Assembly (NCBI GenBank): GCA_021848825.1
Contig: JAJZTQ010000004.1
Span: 46,037-93,861 of the forward strand
DNA from: Pseudomonadota bacterium
GTDB lineage: Bacteria > Pseudomonadota > Gammaproteobacteria > Burkholderiales > JABEVD01
Direction of reading: 5' to 3'
DNA: 47,825 bases
In this document: piece by piece, positions 2,262-7,813 of the stretch
Position numbering within the stretch: the stretch's first letter is position 1
How the letters are laid out: the number at the start of each line of letters is the position of its first letter
Position numbers and translations under genes: made by a program
The notes under the pieces: model-generated
The model's input: the letters and a program-made list of their open reading frames with translations, nothing else
What the model was told of the DNA's origin: nothing
The model's database searches: none

Positions 2262-2531
2262 ATGACAGAACGTGAAGAAAGGATCAGGGAGGCGGCCTAC
2301 AGCCGCTATGCCGACAGGGGATATGAGCATGGGCATGACCTCGAGGACTGGCTGGAGGCAGAGGCTGAAATGGAAAGCGAAATTGCCGAAACGGAACCGG
2401 GCATGCAGCAGGGCGGGACGCTCGGTCCGGCGGAGGACGAGGCGCTGAAGCGCATGATCAGGCGTCATCCGCAGAAGGAGATTCCGCTCGTCGAGGGAAT
2501 GGAGCCTGAAGACGCGCCCGAAAAGGAATGA
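2262..2531 (+). CDS. DUF2934 domain-containing protein
   Basis: This 89-residue acidic protein starts with EERIREAAYSRYADRGYEHG and HDLEDWLEAEAE, the signature of DUF2934, a short conserved region of unknown function found in many proteobacteria. The rest is charged and probably disordered. The ATG at 2262 is preferred over the ATG at 2250 because GGAGG at 2253-2257 is well spaced for it. Its stop overlaps the start of the next gene as ATGA (2528-2531), so it is translationally coupled to the HAD phosphatase and is the first gene of the operon. It has no obvious catalytic role; a regulatory or accessory role in the solute operon is only a guess. Confidence 0.8.
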   Translation: MTEREERIREAAYSRYADRGYEHGHDLEDWLEAEAEMESEIAETEPGMQQGGTLGPAEDEALKRMIRRHPQKEIPLVEGMEPEDAPEKE

Positions 2532-3301
2532 CGGCGAAAATCGTCTTCACCGATCTGGACGGGACTTTGCTCGATCCGGTCACGTGCCGCTTCGATTCGG
2601 CCATTCCTGCCCTGGAGATGATCAGGAAAAGAAAGATCCCTCTCGTCTTCTGCTCGAGCAAGACCCGCGCAGAGATCGTCGCGATCAGGAAGAAGATGGA
2701 AAACACGGCCCCCTTCATTTCGGAAAACGGCGGCGGAATCTACATTCCGGAGGGCTATTTCTCATTCGGCTTCGACTCCGATGTCCTGGATGGTTACAGG
2801 CTTATCGTTCTCGGAGAACCCTATGATCTGGTCAGGCGGCGCTTCGAGGAAATCAGGAGAAAAACGGGCATCAGGGTCAGGGGGTTTTCCGACATGAGCG
2901 ACGAGGAGGTGGCTCGGCTCACCGGCATTTCGAAGGAAGAGGCGCATCTTGCGAAACAGCGCGATTTCGACGAGCCTTTCGTTTTCGAGCAGGGTCCGGA
3001 CGAGCGATTCCTGAAGGCGCTTGAGGCTGCCGGGCTGAACTGGACAAGGGGCAGGCTTTTCCATGCGATGGGGAACCACGACAAGGGGCTTGCCGTGAAC
3101 CGCCTGAAATCCTTCTACGAGCGGGAATATGGCGAAATATCGAGCATCGCGCTTGGGGATGGCGAGAACGATGTTCCGATGCTTCGCGCAGTCGATTTTC
3201 CCGTCCTCTTGGGCGGCGCGGCTCCGTTCGAGGGGTCGATCGGGACGAGCAAGAGCGGCCCGGTCGGATGGAACGAAGCGGTGCTGAAGCTGATCGCGTG
3301 A
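2528..3301 (+). CDS. HAD-IIB phosphatase, mannosyl-3-phosphoglycerate phosphatase family
   Basis: The 257-residue protein has the HAD motifs of the Cof/MPGP group: [11 protein letters not shown] at residues about 6-16 (nucleophile Asp and general acid Asp), VFCSSKTRAEI (motif II), and MGNHDKG followed by ALGDGENDVPML (motif III Lys and the metal-binding Asp pair). The ISENGGGIYIPEGYF segment is typical of mannosyl-3-phosphoglycerate phosphatases. These enzymes remove the phosphate from glycosyl-3-phosphoglycerates to yield the free osmolyte. With GpgS and a second glycosyltransferase downstream, the substrate is probably glucosyl- or mannosylglucosyl-3-phosphoglycerate. It overlaps both neighbours (ATGA upstream, GTGA downstream). 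Family is firm; substrate is inference. Confidence 0.85.
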   Translation: MTAKIVFTDLDGTLLDPVTCRFDSAIPALEMIRKRKIPLVFCSSKTRAEIVAIRKKMENTAPFISENGGGIYIPEGYFSFGFDSDVLDGYRLIVLGEPYDLVRRRFEEIRRKTGIRVRGFSDMSDEEVARLTGISKEEAHLAKQRDFDEPFVFEQGPDERFLKALEAAGLNWTRGRLFHAMGNHDKGLAVNRLKSFYEREYGEISSIALGDGENDVPMLRAVDFPVLLGGAAPFEGSIGTSKSGPVGWNEAVLKLIA

Positions 3302-4551
3302 GCAGCATCGCCTTCAGGGCCGAAGTCGAAGCCCAGATCGAAGCGGTCGGGCATGCCGATATCGTCGTCGGCATACCGAGCTTCAACAACGCGAGAACCA
3401 TAGGGCGCGTCGTCAGGGCGGTTCAGGCCGGACTCGCGAAGTATTTTCCCGACGAGCGCGCGGTCATCGTGAATTCGGACGGCGGTTCGGCTGACGGCAC
3501 GATGGATGTGGTCCGCGCTTCCTCGATGGACGATTTCGGGGCCATTCTGATCCACCACCGGATTTCCCCCGTTTCGAAAATCAGCTTTCCATATTCGGGC
3601 ATTCCAGGAAAGGGAAGCGCCTTCAGGTCGATATTCGAAATCGCGAAAGTGCTCGGCGCAAAGGCCTGCGCAGTAGTCGACTCGGACTTGAGGAGCATTG
3701 CCCCGGAATGGATGGAATTGCTTCTGAAACCGGTCCTGGAATGGGATTTCGATTATGTCGCACCCCTCTATCATCGCCACAAGTTCGACGGCACCATCAC
3801 CAACAGCATCATTTATCCCCTGACACGCGCGCTTTACGGCAGGCGCGTCAGGCAGCCCATAGGCGGGGAATTCGGCTTCTCGGGGAGGATCGCGAAGCAT
3901 TATCTTGAAAAGGAGGTATGGGAATCGGATGTCGCCCGCTTCGGCATAGACATCTGGATGACGACGACTGCGATTGCCGACGGATTCAGGGTGGCGCAGT
4001 CGTTTCTAGGCGCCAAGATCCACGACCCGAAGGACCCCGGGGCGGATCTGGTTGAAATGCTTTATCAGGTCGTGGGCGCCACCTTCGAACTGATGGAAAC
4101 CTATGCGGAAATCTGGACGCCGATAAGAGAGTCTCGCGCCGTCGAAACTTTCGGCTTCGAGTATGCGGTGGGCCTGGAGCATGTCGCTGTCGACACGGGG
4201 AGAATGCTGGATGCCTTCAGGGCCGGGCTGGAGAATCTCGGGGAAATCTGGCGGGAAATTCTGGGCGAAGGCGATTTCAGGGAAGTCGAGAAGCTCGGCG
4301 AGACGGGCGTCTTTCCGGTCGAGCTCTGGGCACGCATCGTCTATGATTATGCCATAGCCTTCCACAAGAGGAAGCTGCCCAGGGAACACCTGATCAAGTC
4401 GCTCGCTCCGCTTTATCTCGGCAAAACCGCCATTTTCATCCGGACGATCGAGAAGATGGAAATGCCCGAGGTGGAGGACGAAATAGAAAAGCTCTGCGCT
4501 GCTTTCGAAAGCTCGAAGGATTACCTTGTCGCCAGCTGGAAACGATCTTGA
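3298..4551 (+). CDS. GT-A glycosyltransferase, candidate MggA-like (osmolyte glycosyltransferase)
   Basis: The 417-residue protein has a GT-A/family-2-like fold. Seen are DIVVGIPSFNNARTIGRVV near the N-terminus, VNSDGGSADGT, a donor-binding VVDSDL (DxD motif) near residue 140, and IGGEFGFSG. The C-terminal 200 residues are helical. It starts at GTG 3298, overlapping the phosphatase stop as GTGA, and ends 11 bases before the next start. It is not the GpgS itself, since that gene lies downstream with the clearer signature. By context it may add a second sugar to glucosyl-3-phosphoglycerate, as MggA does in Petrotoga mannosylglucosylglycerate synthesis, or act like a mannosylglycerate synthase. 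Sugar donor and acceptor are not provable from sequence. Confidence 0.75.
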   Translation: MSSIAFRAEVEAQIEAVGHADIVVGIPSFNNARTIGRVVRAVQAGLAKYFPDERAVIVNSDGGSADGTMDVVRASSMDDFGAILIHHRISPVSKISFPYSGIPGKGSAFRSIFEIAKVLGAKACAVVDSDLRSIAPEWMELLLKPVLEWDFDYVAPLYHRHKFDGTITNSIIYPLTRALYGRRVRQPIGGEFGFSGRIAKHYLEKEVWESDVARFGIDIWMTTTAIADGFRVAQSFLGAKIHDPKDPGADLVEMLYQVVGATFELMETYAEIWTPIRESRAVETFGFEYAVGLEHVAVDTGRMLDAFRAGLENLGEIWREILGEGDFREVEKLGETGVFPVELWARIVYDYAIAFHKRKLPREHLIKSLAPLYLGKTAIFIRTIEKMEMPEVEDEIEKLCAAFESSKDYLVASWKRS

Positions 4552-4562
4552 AGGAGGCCGCC

Positions 4563-5261
4563 ATGTCAGACTTTCTGAACCTGATACTCGAACCCATCCG
4601 TGAAATGTTCATGAAGTTCAGGGAATTCCTGCCGAATTTCCTGGCCATGCTGGTGATACTGTTCGTCGGTTTTCTCATCGCGGCGCTTCTGAGGCGGTTG
4701 CTGGTCAGATTCCTTTCCGCGATAGGGTTCGACAGCTGGTCGGACAGGATGGGGTTCACTTCGATGATGAGGAAAGGGGACCTTTGGGACAAGCCCTCAT
4801 CGATGCTGGGATCCTTCTTCTTCTGGATCATGGTCCTCATCACCCTGATGACAGGGCTCAATGCGCTGAAAATCCACGTGATAGAAAACATGGTCCTGCA
4901 GTTCTTCAATTATCTGCCGAGGGCGGCATCAGCCCTGCTGATCCTCGTCGCAGGATACCTGCTTTCCGCTTTCTTCAGCAGAACGCTGCTCATTGCTGCG
5001 GTCAACGCCGGCTACCGCTATGCGAAACCGGTAGCCCGCGCCGTGAAGGTATTGCTGCTGATCATGACCTTCGCAATGGTGATGGAACAGCTTCAGATTG
5101 CGCCCGGTATCGTTCTGGCCGCCTTCTCGATCGTATTCGGCGGGATAGTGGCGGCGCTCACGATTGCTTTCGGGGTGGGCGGAATCGACGTGGCCAGAAA
5201 GATGATCGAGAGCGAGGTCGCCGAAAGGAAGCCGGAAAGTACCGACGTCGAGCATATCTGA
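4563..5261 (+). CDS. Small mechanosensitive-channel-like membrane protein (conserved TM helix type)
   Basis: This 232-residue inner-membrane protein has about five hydrophobic segments: FLAMLVILFVGFLIAALL, SFFFWIMVLITLMTGL, AASALLILVAGYLLSAFF, VKVLLLIMTFAMVM, and a final Gly/Ala-rich one, AAFSIVFGGIVAALTIAFG. These segments look like the paired 'conserved TM helix' repeats of MscS-related proteins. The protein stops shortly after the pore-like helix, so the cytoplasmic beta domain of a full MscS is absent. AAGGAGG at 4551-4557 sets the ATG at 4563. It lies between two osmolyte-synthesis genes, which suggests a role in osmotic adjustment or solute release. Channel activity is inferred. Confidence 0.75.
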   Translation: MSDFLNLILEPIREMFMKFREFLPNFLAMLVILFVGFLIAALLRRLLVRFLSAIGFDSWSDRMGFTSMMRKGDLWDKPSSMLGSFFFWIMVLITLMTGLNALKIHVIENMVLQFFNYLPRAASALLILVAGYLLSAFFSRTLLIAAVNAGYRYAKPVARAVKVLLLIMTFAMVMEQLQIAPGIVLAAFSIVFGGIVAALTIAFGVGGIDVARKMIESEVAERKPESTDVEHI

Positions 5262-5272
5262 AAGGGCGAATC

Positions 5273-6478
5273 ATGACCGACTTCTATCAGACGGGAAGCA
5301 TCACGACACTTCACCAGATCGGCAAGACTTCCCTGGAAAGAATCGAGGCGGAGCTTCTGGCGTATTCGAAAGCGCGGCCCATCGCCCTCGTGCTCCCAGC
5401 GCTCTATTCCGAATTCGAAGGTCCTGCCATGCCCGGAATCGTTCACGAGCTCGCCAAGGTGAAGTATCTCAACCAGATCGTCCTGACGCTCGACCAGGCA
5501 TCTGAATCGGAAATGAAGAAGGCCAGGGAATTCATGTCTCCAGTGTCGGCAGAAATCAAGATCGTCCACAACAATGGCAGGCGCATCGCCGAGATCTACG
5601 AAATGCTTTCCCGCAACGGCGTGGATGCCGGGCAGAAGGGCAAGGGGCGATCCGCCTGGCTTGCATACGGTTATATCCTGGCAAGGGGAATGTCCGAAAT
5701 CATTGCCCTGCATGACTGCGACATCGTCACCTACAGCAGGGAAATGCTGGCAAGGCTCTGCTATCCCGTCGCCAACCCGAATATGGATTTCGTGTTCTGC
5801 AAAGGCTATTACAGCAGGGTGACGACCAAGATGGGCGGGCGAGTCACCCGCCTTCTCGTGACCCCTCTTGTCAGATCCATCCAGCAGCTGATCGGTCCGC
5901 ATCCGTTCCTGGTTTTTCTCGACAGCTTCCGCTATCCCTTGGCCGGAGAGTTCTGCATGGTCACGGATCTGGCGAGAGTGAACAGGATTCCGTGGGACTG
6001 GGGCCTTGAGGTGGGCTCGCTTGCCGAGGTGCACAGGAATTATTCGGCCAGGAGGGTTTGTCAGGTTGACATCGCCGCGACCTACGATCACAAGCACCAG
6101 GTGCTTTCGGCTGAAGATGTCGGCGGCGGATTGATGAAGATGGCGGTAGACATCTGCAAATCCGTGTTCAGAACGCTCGCCTCGGAAGGTGTCGTATTTT
6201 CAGATGGGTTCTTCAATTCCCTGCTTCTGGCCTATCTGCGTCAGGCTGAAGATACGCTGATGAAATACGAGGCGGATGCCGCAATGAACGGCCTCGAATT
6301 CGACCGCCACGAAGAGGCCAGGGCTGTCGAGGCCTTTACCAATGCCATAAGCGCGGCTTCCAGGGCATTTTCCGAAAACGCCCTGGGCAATCCCCTGATT
6401 CCAAACTGGAGCAGGGTGAGTGCTGCCATCCCCGCCATTTTCGAGATGCTCGAGGCCGCGGTGGATGCGGACAATTAG
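5273..6478 (+). CDS. gpgS: Glucosyl-3-phosphoglycerate synthase (GT81-like)
   Basis: The 401-residue protein resembles GpgS, which transfers glucose from NDP-glucose to D-3-phosphoglycerate as the first step of glucosylglycerate synthesis. Supporting features are IALVLPALYSEFEG at residues about 40-53, the KGRSAWLAYGY segment, the metal-binding ALHDCDIV, and the family-typical KGYYSRVTTKMGGRVTRLLV with FRYPLAGEF and WDWGLEVG. The ATG at 5273 overlaps no upstream gene and follows the membrane-protein stop by 11 bases. It is the last gene of the operon and converges on tolC, ending 3 bases before the tolC stop with no visible terminator hairpin. Assignment to the GpgS/MpgS superfamily is strong; sugar specificity is inferred. 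Confidence 0.8.
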   Translation: MTDFYQTGSITTLHQIGKTSLERIEAELLAYSKARPIALVLPALYSEFEGPAMPGIVHELAKVKYLNQIVLTLDQASESEMKKAREFMSPVSAEIKIVHNNGRRIAEIYEMLSRNGVDAGQKGKGRSAWLAYGYILARGMSEIIALHDCDIVTYSREMLARLCYPVANPNMDFVFCKGYYSRVTTKMGGRVTRLLVTPLVRSIQQLIGPHPFLVFLDSFRYPLAGEFCMVTDLARVNRIPWDWGLEVGSLAEVHRNYSARRVCQVDIAATYDHKHQVLSAEDVGGGLMKMAVDICKSVFRTLASEGVVFSDGFFNSLLLAYLRQAEDTLMKYEADAAMNGLEFDRHEEARAVEAFTNAISAASRAFSENALGNPLIPNWSRVSAAIPAIFEMLEAAVDADN

Positions 6479-6481
6479 GGC

Positions 6482-7813
6482 TCAGTGAAGCGCGCGGTTC
6501 ACGTCCTGGAGGTCCGAGGATTTCAGCGAGCCTGATGCGGCTTTCAGCTTCAGTTCGCTCAAGAGGTAGTCGTATCTCGCCTTGTAGAGATCGCGCTTGG
6601 CCGAATAGAACTGCTGCTGGGCGTTGAGCACATCGACAGCCGTTCTGACGCCGACCTGGCTGCCCAGTTCGGTCGACTCAAGAGAAGTCTTGCTCGACAC
6701 GAGCGCCTGCTCAAGGGCCTTCACCTGAGCCATGCCGTTTGCCACGCCGAGGAATGCCTGGCGGGCATTGAGTTCCGCATTCCTTCGCGCATTCTCCTCC
6801 TCGTCCTTGGACTTCTCCAGATTCGCGGCCGCTTCCCTGGTCTGGGCGCTGATGCCTCCTCCCTGATAGATCGGAAGATTGAACTGCAGCCCGATTGCGC
6901 TCGATTTCGTGTTGTATCCGAGATCGAGCAGAGGTCCGCCGCTTGCCGAATTTTCACCGTAGCTCGCCACCACGGAAAGCGTAGGATAATGCCCCGCCCG
7001 CTGCCGCTCGACTTCCTTCTCGGCGATCTTTTCCTGGATCTGGCTTCCGACCAGCTGCAGGTTGTTCTTGACCGAAGCATCGACCCATTTCTGCACATCG
7101 TCCGGAAACGGCGCCTTGGGCTCGAATCTGGGATTCACCTGTTCGAGTTCTCCCGGCATCTTTCCGATGAGGGTGGCAAGGGTTCTTTTCCTGATTTCGA
7201 GATCGCTCTGCGCTGCGATTTCCTGCGACGAGATCAGGTCGAATCTGGCCTGGGCATCGTTCGTGTCCGTGATGGTCGCCGTCCCGACCTCGAAATTCTG
7301 TTTTGCCTGCTGGAGCTGCTCCGAAATCGCCTTTTTCTGCGCCAGCACGAGCTCGACATTGTCCATCGCGAGCAATACGTCGAAATAGGCGCTCGCCGCC
7401 CTCAGGATCAGGTCCTGTTGCGCGGCCTGGAATTGCGCTTCCGCGGCTGCGACCTGGAGGTGCGCCTCGTCGAACTGTATCCAGCTCTGCATCTGGAATA
7501 CTGGCTGGGAAAGCGAAACGGTGTAGCCGTTCGAATTGTAGTTTCCGCTTCCCCCGATGGGGAATCCTGCCTGGACGGGCGTATTGAGCGCGGTCGTGAA
7601 GTGGTTGTAGGTGGTGTTTGCGCCCAGACCGATCGAGGGCAAAAGCAGCGCCCTTCCTTCAGGCAGCTTTTGCTGCGCGGCCTGAAGAGCGGCCTTGGCG
7701 GCCTGGAAAGCGGGATCCTGAATCTTTGCGTCGTTGTAGATGGCAAGGAGATCAGCCGCATGAACGGCGGGGCTGAGGGAAAGAAGAATCGCGAAAACCG
7801 GCCTGAGTGTCAT
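6482..7813 (-). CDS. tolC: TolC-family outer-membrane efflux/type I secretion protein
   Basis: This 443-residue protein starts with a signal peptide ending AVHAADLL, with likely cleavage after AHA. It follows the TolC plan of two repeats of long coiled-coil helices: Ala/Gln-rich segments at about 30-60, 115-220 and 330-400, and beta segments such as YTVSLSQPVFQ and IGLQFNLPIYQGG, the conserved 'LP.y.GG' hairpin. The trimer forms the outer-membrane exit duct for tripartite efflux pumps or type I secretion. The adjacent upstream gene on the same strand is pcm; this pcm-tolC order is common in betaproteobacteria. No pump genes lie in the window, so the partners are unknown. Confidence 0.9.
   Translation of the reverse strand: MTLRPVFAILLSLSPAVHAADLLAIYNDAKIQDPAFQAAKAALQAAQQKLPEGRALLLPSIGLGANTTYNHFTTALNTPVQAGFPIGGSGNYNSNGYTVSLSQPVFQMQSWIQFDEAHLQVAAAEAQFQAAQQDLILRAASAYFDVLLAMDNVELVLAQKKAISEQLQQAKQNFEVGTATITDTNDAQARFDLISSQEIAAQSDLEIRKRTLATLIGKMPGELEQVNPRFEPKAPFPDDVQKWVDASVKNNLQLVGSQIQEKIAEKEVERQRAGHYPTLSVVASYGENSASGGPLLDLGYNTKSSAIGLQFNLPIYQGGGISAQTREAAANLEKSKDEEENARRNAELNARQAFLGVANGMAQVKALEQALVSSKTSLESTELGSQVGVRTAVDVLNAQQQFYSAKRDLYKARYDYLLSELKLKAASGSLKSSDLQDVNRALH

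Follow-up and report, generated by a model that had tools for sequence, protein, structure and literature searches.

Gene content and arrangement

The subject of this work is a gene unit for a predicted osmolyte of the glucosylglycerate type, which lies in a stretch of 47,825 nucleotides of betaproteobacterial DNA (contig JAJZTQ010000004.1; hereafter the window). Five open frames, all on the + strand, occupy positions 2262-6478, and from one frame to the next there is either a 4-base overlap or a gap of 11 bases, an arrangement as in an operon. The positions match those of an earlier, unaided description of this DNA (the original prediction), and its statement that a phosphatase, a GT-A glycosyltransferase and a GpgS-type synthase are grouped together is confirmed by both the frames and the profile searches. 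The frames, with the gene that borders them on the right, are:

2262-2531, + strand: P0001, DUF2934 gene (PF11154, 43.6 bits), judged to be a resident neighbour of tolC and not a working part
2528-3301, + strand: P0002, HAD-IIB phosphatase of the GpgP/MpgP type (mannosyl/glucosyl-3-phosphoglycerate phosphatase family), from TIGR01486 and the HAD motifs
3298-4551, + strand: P0003, GT-A glycosyltransferase (GT) with the GT78 mannosylglycerate synthase fold in its predicted structure; putative role in a second sugar transfer
4563-5261, + strand: P0004, membrane protein of 232 amino acids with MscS transmembrane repeats (PF05552) and no MscS beta domain
5273-6478, + strand: P0005, GpgS-type glucosyl-3-phosphoglycerate synthase, GT81-like (NF040724 over the full length, GGRVT, DCD)
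6482-7813, - strand: TolC-like outer-membrane protein gene (named by eye), the right-hand border of the insertion and outside the unit

The functional unit is the four genes at 2528-6478, encoding the phosphatase, the GT, the membrane protein and GpgS, with the DUF2934 gene excluded. A promoter scan found no site on the + strand, and the numbers of sites from the promoter and terminator scans were about those in shuffled sequence.

A predicted two-step route to glucosylglycerate

P0005 was matched by NF040724, the curated GpgS model, with 342.7 bits over residues 3-400 of 401, below the cut-off of 700, and by PRK13915 with 62.6 bits (cut-off 262); by NCBI's rule it is not called a GpgS equivalog despite the full-length match. 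It carries the acceptor motif GGRVT at 188, as in solved GpgS and MpgS, and an acidic D-x-D motif, DCD, at 148. P0002 scored 227.1 bits with TIGR01486, above the cut-off of 164.75, and 229.5 bits with TIGR02461, the equivalog model for mannosyl-3-phosphoglycerate phosphatase (MPGP), below the cut-off of 244.35; it also matched the solved MPGP 3ztw (E 3e-48) and has the HAD motifs DLDGT and GDGxND. Glucosylglycerate (GG) is known to be made in two steps by a GpgS together with a phosphatase of the MPGP family, and it is very probable from these homologies that the unit encodes a pathway of the glucosylglycerate type. To that extent the osmolyte named in the original prediction is borne out; its more specific variant, mannosylglucosylglycerate (MGG), is no more than a possibility, the donor sugar being unreadable from the sequence.

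The PLxGE loop of the synthase was considered as an indicator of the donor. A serine in this loop has been proposed to exclude mannose, according to the available text of PMC2581804. No simple rule emerged, as the Rubrobacter MpgS has PLAGE like P0005, and PLGGE occurs in the GpgS chains from M. hassiacum and in 3ckj.

The glycosyltransferase has the fold of mannosylglycerate synthase

Searched as a single sequence, P0003 remained below the cut-off of every profile (PRK13915, 48 bits; MGS_GT, 20.7 bits against a gathering score of 27; Glycos_transf_2, 20.2 bits). A family alignment of 71 members was made, of which 27 are matched by MGS_GT at E 0.01 or better; in 14 control genomes PF21969 had no match and NF040724 matched 3. 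The AlphaFold2 model built from the alignment (predicted local distance difference test score, pLDDT, 87.1; predicted template modelling score, pTM, 0.88) has as its best solved match 2bo7_A, the mannosylglycerate synthase (MGS) of Rhodothermus, with a Z of 34.1 and a root mean square deviation of 3.3 Å over 352 residues. This match spans residues 22 to 412 of the model and includes the C-terminal helical domain, whereas that to GpgS enzymes (Z 20.3 over 224 residues) covers mainly the catalytic part. MGS also ranked first (E 6e-5) when the family was used in a profile search of the PDB sequences. The GT78 fold thus extends over nearly the whole chain, although the Pfam MGS_GT gathering score is not reached.

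The Rhodothermus marinus enzyme (GT78; 2bo7, 2y4m) shares with P0003 the full-length fold and both the catalytic and the glycerate-anchoring residues, at a sequence identity in the structural alignment of 16%. By counting along the alignment, D102, R131, D135 and H217 of MGS, which presumably have functional roles there, are D130, R160, D164 and H242 of P0003, invariant in 71/71 members. The same invariance holds for K105, D128, I167, T168 and D218, the equivalents of MGS K76, D100, I138, T139 and D192, whose roles are given in the available text of PMC2581804.

The acceptor motif differs between the groups: GGRVT occurs in P0005 and in those solved GpgS and MpgS structures that were matched, DGTIT in P0003 and DAMIT in MGS. 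The position of the GGRVT arginine is T166 in all 71 members of the P0003 family, and is a methionine in MGS. With DGTIT in place of GGRVT, P0003 is unlikely to be another GpgS. A further difference from MGS is that R160-H161-K162 stands where MGS has R-A-S; R160 and H161 are invariant and K162 is present in 70/71, and these three residues could hold a phosphate. A long acceptor loop was considered as another difference between P0003 and GpgS; it holds against the mycobacterial enzymes, but P0005 is only about 2 residues longer there than P0003.

A plasmid search with P0003 gave 5 records, the best from Halorussus salilacus (29% identity over 94%). In this distant, haloarchaeal relative, which stands in another gene context, the arginine and threonine equivalent to R160 and T168 are kept too, and the MGS-like pocket is therefore not specific proof of the acceptor. 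The plasmid genes of Halorussus salilacus (L157:7986-9131) and of a Streptomyces (L190:5974-7032), both distant GT relatives at 28-29%, lie near an S-adenosylmethionine (SAM) methyltransferase or SAM synthetase, and GpgS is not among the annotated genes of either stretch. They possibly represent another use of this GT fold.

The membrane protein is MscS-like and lacks the beta domain

PF05552 is the sole Pfam domain of P0004 (59 bits) and was found in 68/68 aligned members of its family, while in these 68 members the MscS beta domain had no Pfam match at E 0.01. The chain of 232 residues ends shortly past a helix at 181-222, and the family is uniform in length, at 226-239 amino acids in all but one of 79 members, the exception being cut by a contig end. 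In the model of P0004 (pLDDT 88.2, pTM 0.67) there are five long helices. Its C-terminal half matched the transmembrane part of MscS with a Z of about 10 over 118-119 residues, which is below the tool's caution level for helical proteins, and Foldseek with this model gave no match at E 0.001. P0004 and the channels of the MscS family therefore have in common the PF05552 transmembrane repeats and a weak C-terminal fold match; unlike those channels, P0004 lacks the beta domain, is only 226-239 amino acids long in its family and is genetically tied to a GT. Since the beta domain is missing, the known design of MscS gives no support for solute release, the function that the original prediction suggested for this channel-like gene, although release is still conceivable.

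A gene like that for P0004 lies 3' of the GT gene, on the same strand, in 79/80 of the GT loci described below, at distances from a 10-base overlap to a 323-base gap by the matched ranges; in the exception (L028) the contig stretch ends 32 bases past the GT. The pairing is not exclusive from the side of the membrane protein, as near-full-length relatives (98-185 bits) were found in 4 of the 60 genomes searched, and in none of these four (G054, G066, G320 and G391) was a GT detected. In G054 the contig with GpgS starts within a transmembrane gene, and the GT of this genome may lie off that contig. P0004 is best described as MscS-like but stripped down, a companion of the GT though not private to it.

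Distribution of the glycosyltransferase and its dependence on GpgS

One scan of a genome collection, with an alignment of two sequences as the query, returned at least 462 stretches related to P0003, of which the best 80 loci were studied. By record title these belong mainly to Nitrospirota and Betaproteobacteria (mostly Gallionellales), and also to Thermodesulfobacteriota, Myxococcota, Acidobacteriota, KSB1 and Zixibacteria. The system is thus not special to this betaproteobacterium.

GpgS is encoded within 54/80 of these loci and the phosphatase within 53/80. For the remaining loci a search of the whole genome recovered GpgS in 17/17 and in 7/9 further cases (the first set also took in L010, whose locus already holds the gene, giving 18/18), so that it is present in the genomes of 78/80 of the closest GT loci, the count for L047 resting on a piece of 136 residues at a contig end. 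In the opposite direction, GpgS was found in 50/398 genomes of a phylum sample, and a strong GT match in a phylum sample of the same size came only from the window's own genome, with three others at 20-22 bits. A more sensitive profile search, which covered G054 and the remaining 49 genomes with GpgS, gave only weak hits (21-23 bits), in 2/50; G054 is of the same order as the window, and its GpgS, 78% identical, lies at the extreme end of its contig. Since GpgS occurs in nearly all GT genomes, while GpgS genomes are mostly without the GT, the GT appears to depend on GpgS and not the reverse, which is to say that the tie is one-sided.

The neighbourhood of GpgS also differs according to the presence of the GT. 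In 19 of the 49 GT-less genomes the GpgS neighbourhood was analysed, and the phosphatase was adjacent in 19/19 and a GH13 phosphorylase-like gene was present in 17/19, all 17 with a (T/S)ETN motif. This is the motif of glucosylglycerate phosphorylase according to the available text of PMC7178133, and these loci look like plain glucosylglycerate clusters. Conversely, no GG phosphorylase was found close to the GT in the 80 loci (stretches of 3.6-17 kb), where three distant GH13 matches (92-167 bits) lack the (T/S)ETN motif, nor near GpgS in 20 stretches from GT-bearing genomes at E 1e-4. These 20 come from the 24 GT genomes with GpgS outside the first locus, and nine of them are under 9 kb. The contrast of 17/19 with 0/20 has a Fisher p of 3e-9, but the groups differ in taxonomy and the value describes a pattern and is not an independent test.

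Several other genes recur in this material. Glycerate 2-kinase-like genes are present in 24/80 GT loci, and in 12 loci the phosphatase is continuous with a MOFRL-type glycerate 2-kinase-like domain, within a single open frame of 717-756 amino acids from stop to stop. An example is L010:2770-4962 from Sulfuricella sp. T08, whose kinase-like part has DUF4147 and MOFRL and scores 227 bits with a glycerate 2-kinase model (cut-off 550); the window's cassette has no such fusion. A protein of 388 amino acids without a Pfam or NCBIfam match is encoded between phosphatase and GT at L041:6818-7981 and has relatives in five loci. Judged by eye, some GpgS loci of GT genomes (L170-L189) are near genes for trehalose or other alpha-glucan-like enzymes, such as L171:418-1749, which has relatives in 6/20 stretches.

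The supply of GDP-mannose was also considered as a means of telling the possible products apart. GMP_PMI, the usual route to GDP-mannose, is present in the window's own genome with 589 bits; it is over the cut-off in 13/19 genomes, the window's own included, and has some match in 17/19. This pattern is not decisive.

Borders and origin of the cassette

In eight congeners (82-99% complete) neither the GT nor GpgS had a match (8/8), and all eight have relatives of the tolC-like gene, 74-83% identical to it across the whole gene or the greater part of it. The tolC region was compared in 7 of the 8; pcm and thiC neighbours are conserved around tolC in the congener loci. In 3/7 of these (L162, L163 and L164) no more than 20 bases separate the end of a DUF2934 gene from that of tolC, no DUF2934 match being found in the other 4/7, and the 80 related GT loci contain no DUF2934 match at all. 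In the window the genes at 2528-6478 sit exactly between DUF2934 and tolC. As DUF2934 adjoins tolC in congeners and is absent from the GT loci, it can be read as the resident and the other four genes as the inserted cassette. It had been placed inside the operon by the original prediction, and its frame does overlap the unit by 4 bases, but these comparisons put it on the tolC side and rule it out as part of the cassette. The four genes were most simply gained as one unit between DUF2934 and tolC, with repeated loss as a less simple alternative.

No anomaly of composition marks a transfer, the cassette genes having 54.8-58.0% GC and the window 56.6%. In a quick tree P0003 groups with sequences from Gallionellales, Sulfuricella and Rhodoferax, inside a wider set dominated by Nitrospirota; the 18-row set has a support of 95 in the Shimodaira-Hasegawa-like approximate likelihood ratio test (SH-aLRT), and the window's row is on a long branch (0.42). 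The closest relative among the matches listed is that of Sulfuricella sp. T08, at 75% (L008 and L010 from this organism are identical in sequence). The start of the window looked by eye like a transposase remnant; Pfam gave no confirmation and it is not claimed as one. On the same contig, a short way upstream of the window, there is a masked stretch.

Discussion

The following pathway is proposed for the cassette. GpgS would couple nucleoside diphosphate (NDP)-glucose with 3-phosphoglycerate, and the phosphatase of the MPGP family would take off the phosphate to give GG, both steps following from strong homology. P0003 would then put a second hexose on the GG core to give a diglycosylglycerate, either MGG or glucosylglucosylglycerate; this step, which draws on phyletic dependence and on the fold, is the weaker one, and a second sugar addition is assigned to the GT tentatively, with a little less than an even chance of being right. 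P0004 might work with P0003 by anchoring it, by regulating it or as a pore for the solute. MGG is one of two possible products, and both have precedents: glucosylglucosylglycerate is reportedly known from Persephonella marina. MGG occurs in the mesophile Rhodopirellula baltica, according to the available text of PMC3694870.

Several observations weigh against parts of this pathway. The scores of P0005 with NF040724 and of P0002 with TIGR02461 are below the curated cut-offs. GpgS was not found in two GT genomes, L016 and L073 (Zixibacteria), although the L016 contig ends inside the membrane gene, exactly where GpgS follows in sister loci. The phosphorylase contrast is confounded with taxonomy, since genomes from the class and phylum of the window are compared in it with genomes that come mostly from Nitrospirota and Gallionellales, and it was judged from neighbourhoods, partly on short contigs. 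The glycerate 2-kinase-like genes of the GT loci would fit a role for free glycerate. In 2/19 genomes there is no match to GMP_PMI, which speaks against mannose there. Furthermore, P0003 keeps I167 and T168, the residues that anchor the glycerate carboxylate in MGS and GpgS, as if its acceptor were glycerate.

This last point leads to the foremost alternative, in which the GT acts in a single step, as a synthase that would join an NDP-sugar and D-glycerate to GG (or mannosylglycerate); the cassette would then make one solute by two parallel routes. The closest solved fold is indeed that of MGS, matched over its full length and far better than GpgS; the DGTIT motif resembles DAMIT and not GGRVT; K76, D100, D102, I138, T139 and D192 of MGS have the same letter in P0003, without variation in the family; and there is a precedent in the ggs-gpgS-gpgP operon of Persephonella marina, which is reported (Fernandes 2007) to provide two routes to glucosylglycerate. 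Redundant routes, however, should be lost separately, and yet GpgS is kept in all but two of the 80 GT genomes; moreover, R160 and T168 are also kept in the Halorussus relative of other context. A one-step synthase is accordingly a serious possibility that falls well short of even, and the addition of a second sugar is ranked above it because of the dependence of the GT on GpgS and the apparent replacement of the phosphorylase.

As a special case of second sugar addition, the GT could be of the MggA type and mannosylate glucosyl-3-phosphoglycerate before the phosphate is removed, which is the order put forward in the original prediction. The pairing of the genes for GpgS and the GT would be expected from this, the R160-H161-K162 triplet could bind the phosphate, and the window's own genome has GMP_PMI. 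The substitution of the GGRVT arginine by T166 throughout the family counts mildly against it, as this arginine presumably takes part in phosphate binding, and such an order of steps seems unlikely. Least likely of these is that the GT is a metabolic sink which replaces GG phosphorylase and, in the manner of sucrose synthase, turns GG and NDP into NDP-glucose and glycerate under the pull of glycerate 2-kinase: this would account for the dependence on GpgS and is in keeping with the lack of phosphorylase near the GT and near GpgS in GT genomes and with the kinase-like genes, fused in 12 loci to the phosphatase, but we infer it from patterns that share the taxonomic confounding, its thermodynamics are by our own estimate unfavourable unless glycerate is very low, and the cassette of the window itself lacks a kinase.

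Adding a second sugar, the role preferred here, also invites comparison with known systems. Petrotoga mobilis is said to make MGG by a pathway of GpgS, MggA and (MggB). The cassette resembles it in pairing GpgS with a second GT and a phosphatase step, and differs in that its GT is without the arginine of GGRVT, that a membrane partner is present and that the second sugar is a proposal. The Persephonella operon reportedly combines the three kinds of gene seen in the cassette (a GpgS, an MPGP-family phosphatase and a further GT), a likeness at the level of gene type, and it would appear to be no worse a match to these genes than the Petrotoga pathway. In other bacteria, the clusters of GpgS, GpgP, GG phosphorylase and kinase covered by the available text of PMC7178133 likewise have GpgS beside an MPGP-family phosphatase; they have the phosphorylase (17/19 loci here) and no pair of GT and membrane protein, and the cassette is the reverse. 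Finally, the P0003 family, unlike the MGS of Rhodothermus, is in the examined loci nearly always found with GpgS and the membrane protein.

The chemistry of the pathway is therefore of a known type, and it is the near-constant pairing of the GT with a stripped MscS-like protein that is unusual. Among the open-licence PMC papers that the searches listed, no title or abstract opening describes this cassette, or an osmolyte of this kind from Nitrospira or Gallionellales. A study of marine Gallionella from 2025 (PMC12607638) discusses ectoine and trehalose in its available text; the words "glycerate" and "mechanosensitive" do not appear in its main text. It is conceivable, though improbable, that the GT and its partner without a beta domain are joined at the membrane as a single unit, where the synthesis or the breakdown of an osmolyte built on glycerate is gated by membrane tension. 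Were this true, a mechanically controlled osmolyte enzyme would exist across Nitrospira, iron oxidisers and several other phyla, for which the parts of the open-licence PMC literature named above record no such osmolyte.

For annotation, GpgS with GG phosphorylase as against GpgS with the pair of GT and membrane protein would be a simple rule, if valid beyond the loci examined. A large and uniform family with the GT78 fold, linked as it is both to GpgS and to an MscS-like protein without the beta domain, makes a coupling between osmolyte chemistry and a membrane sensor testable. If the proposed pathway is true, Nitrospira, Gallionellales and other environmental bacteria carry an osmolyte system derived from glucosylglycerate, and the cassette would be a transferable kit for a small sugar-acid protectant against salt stress.

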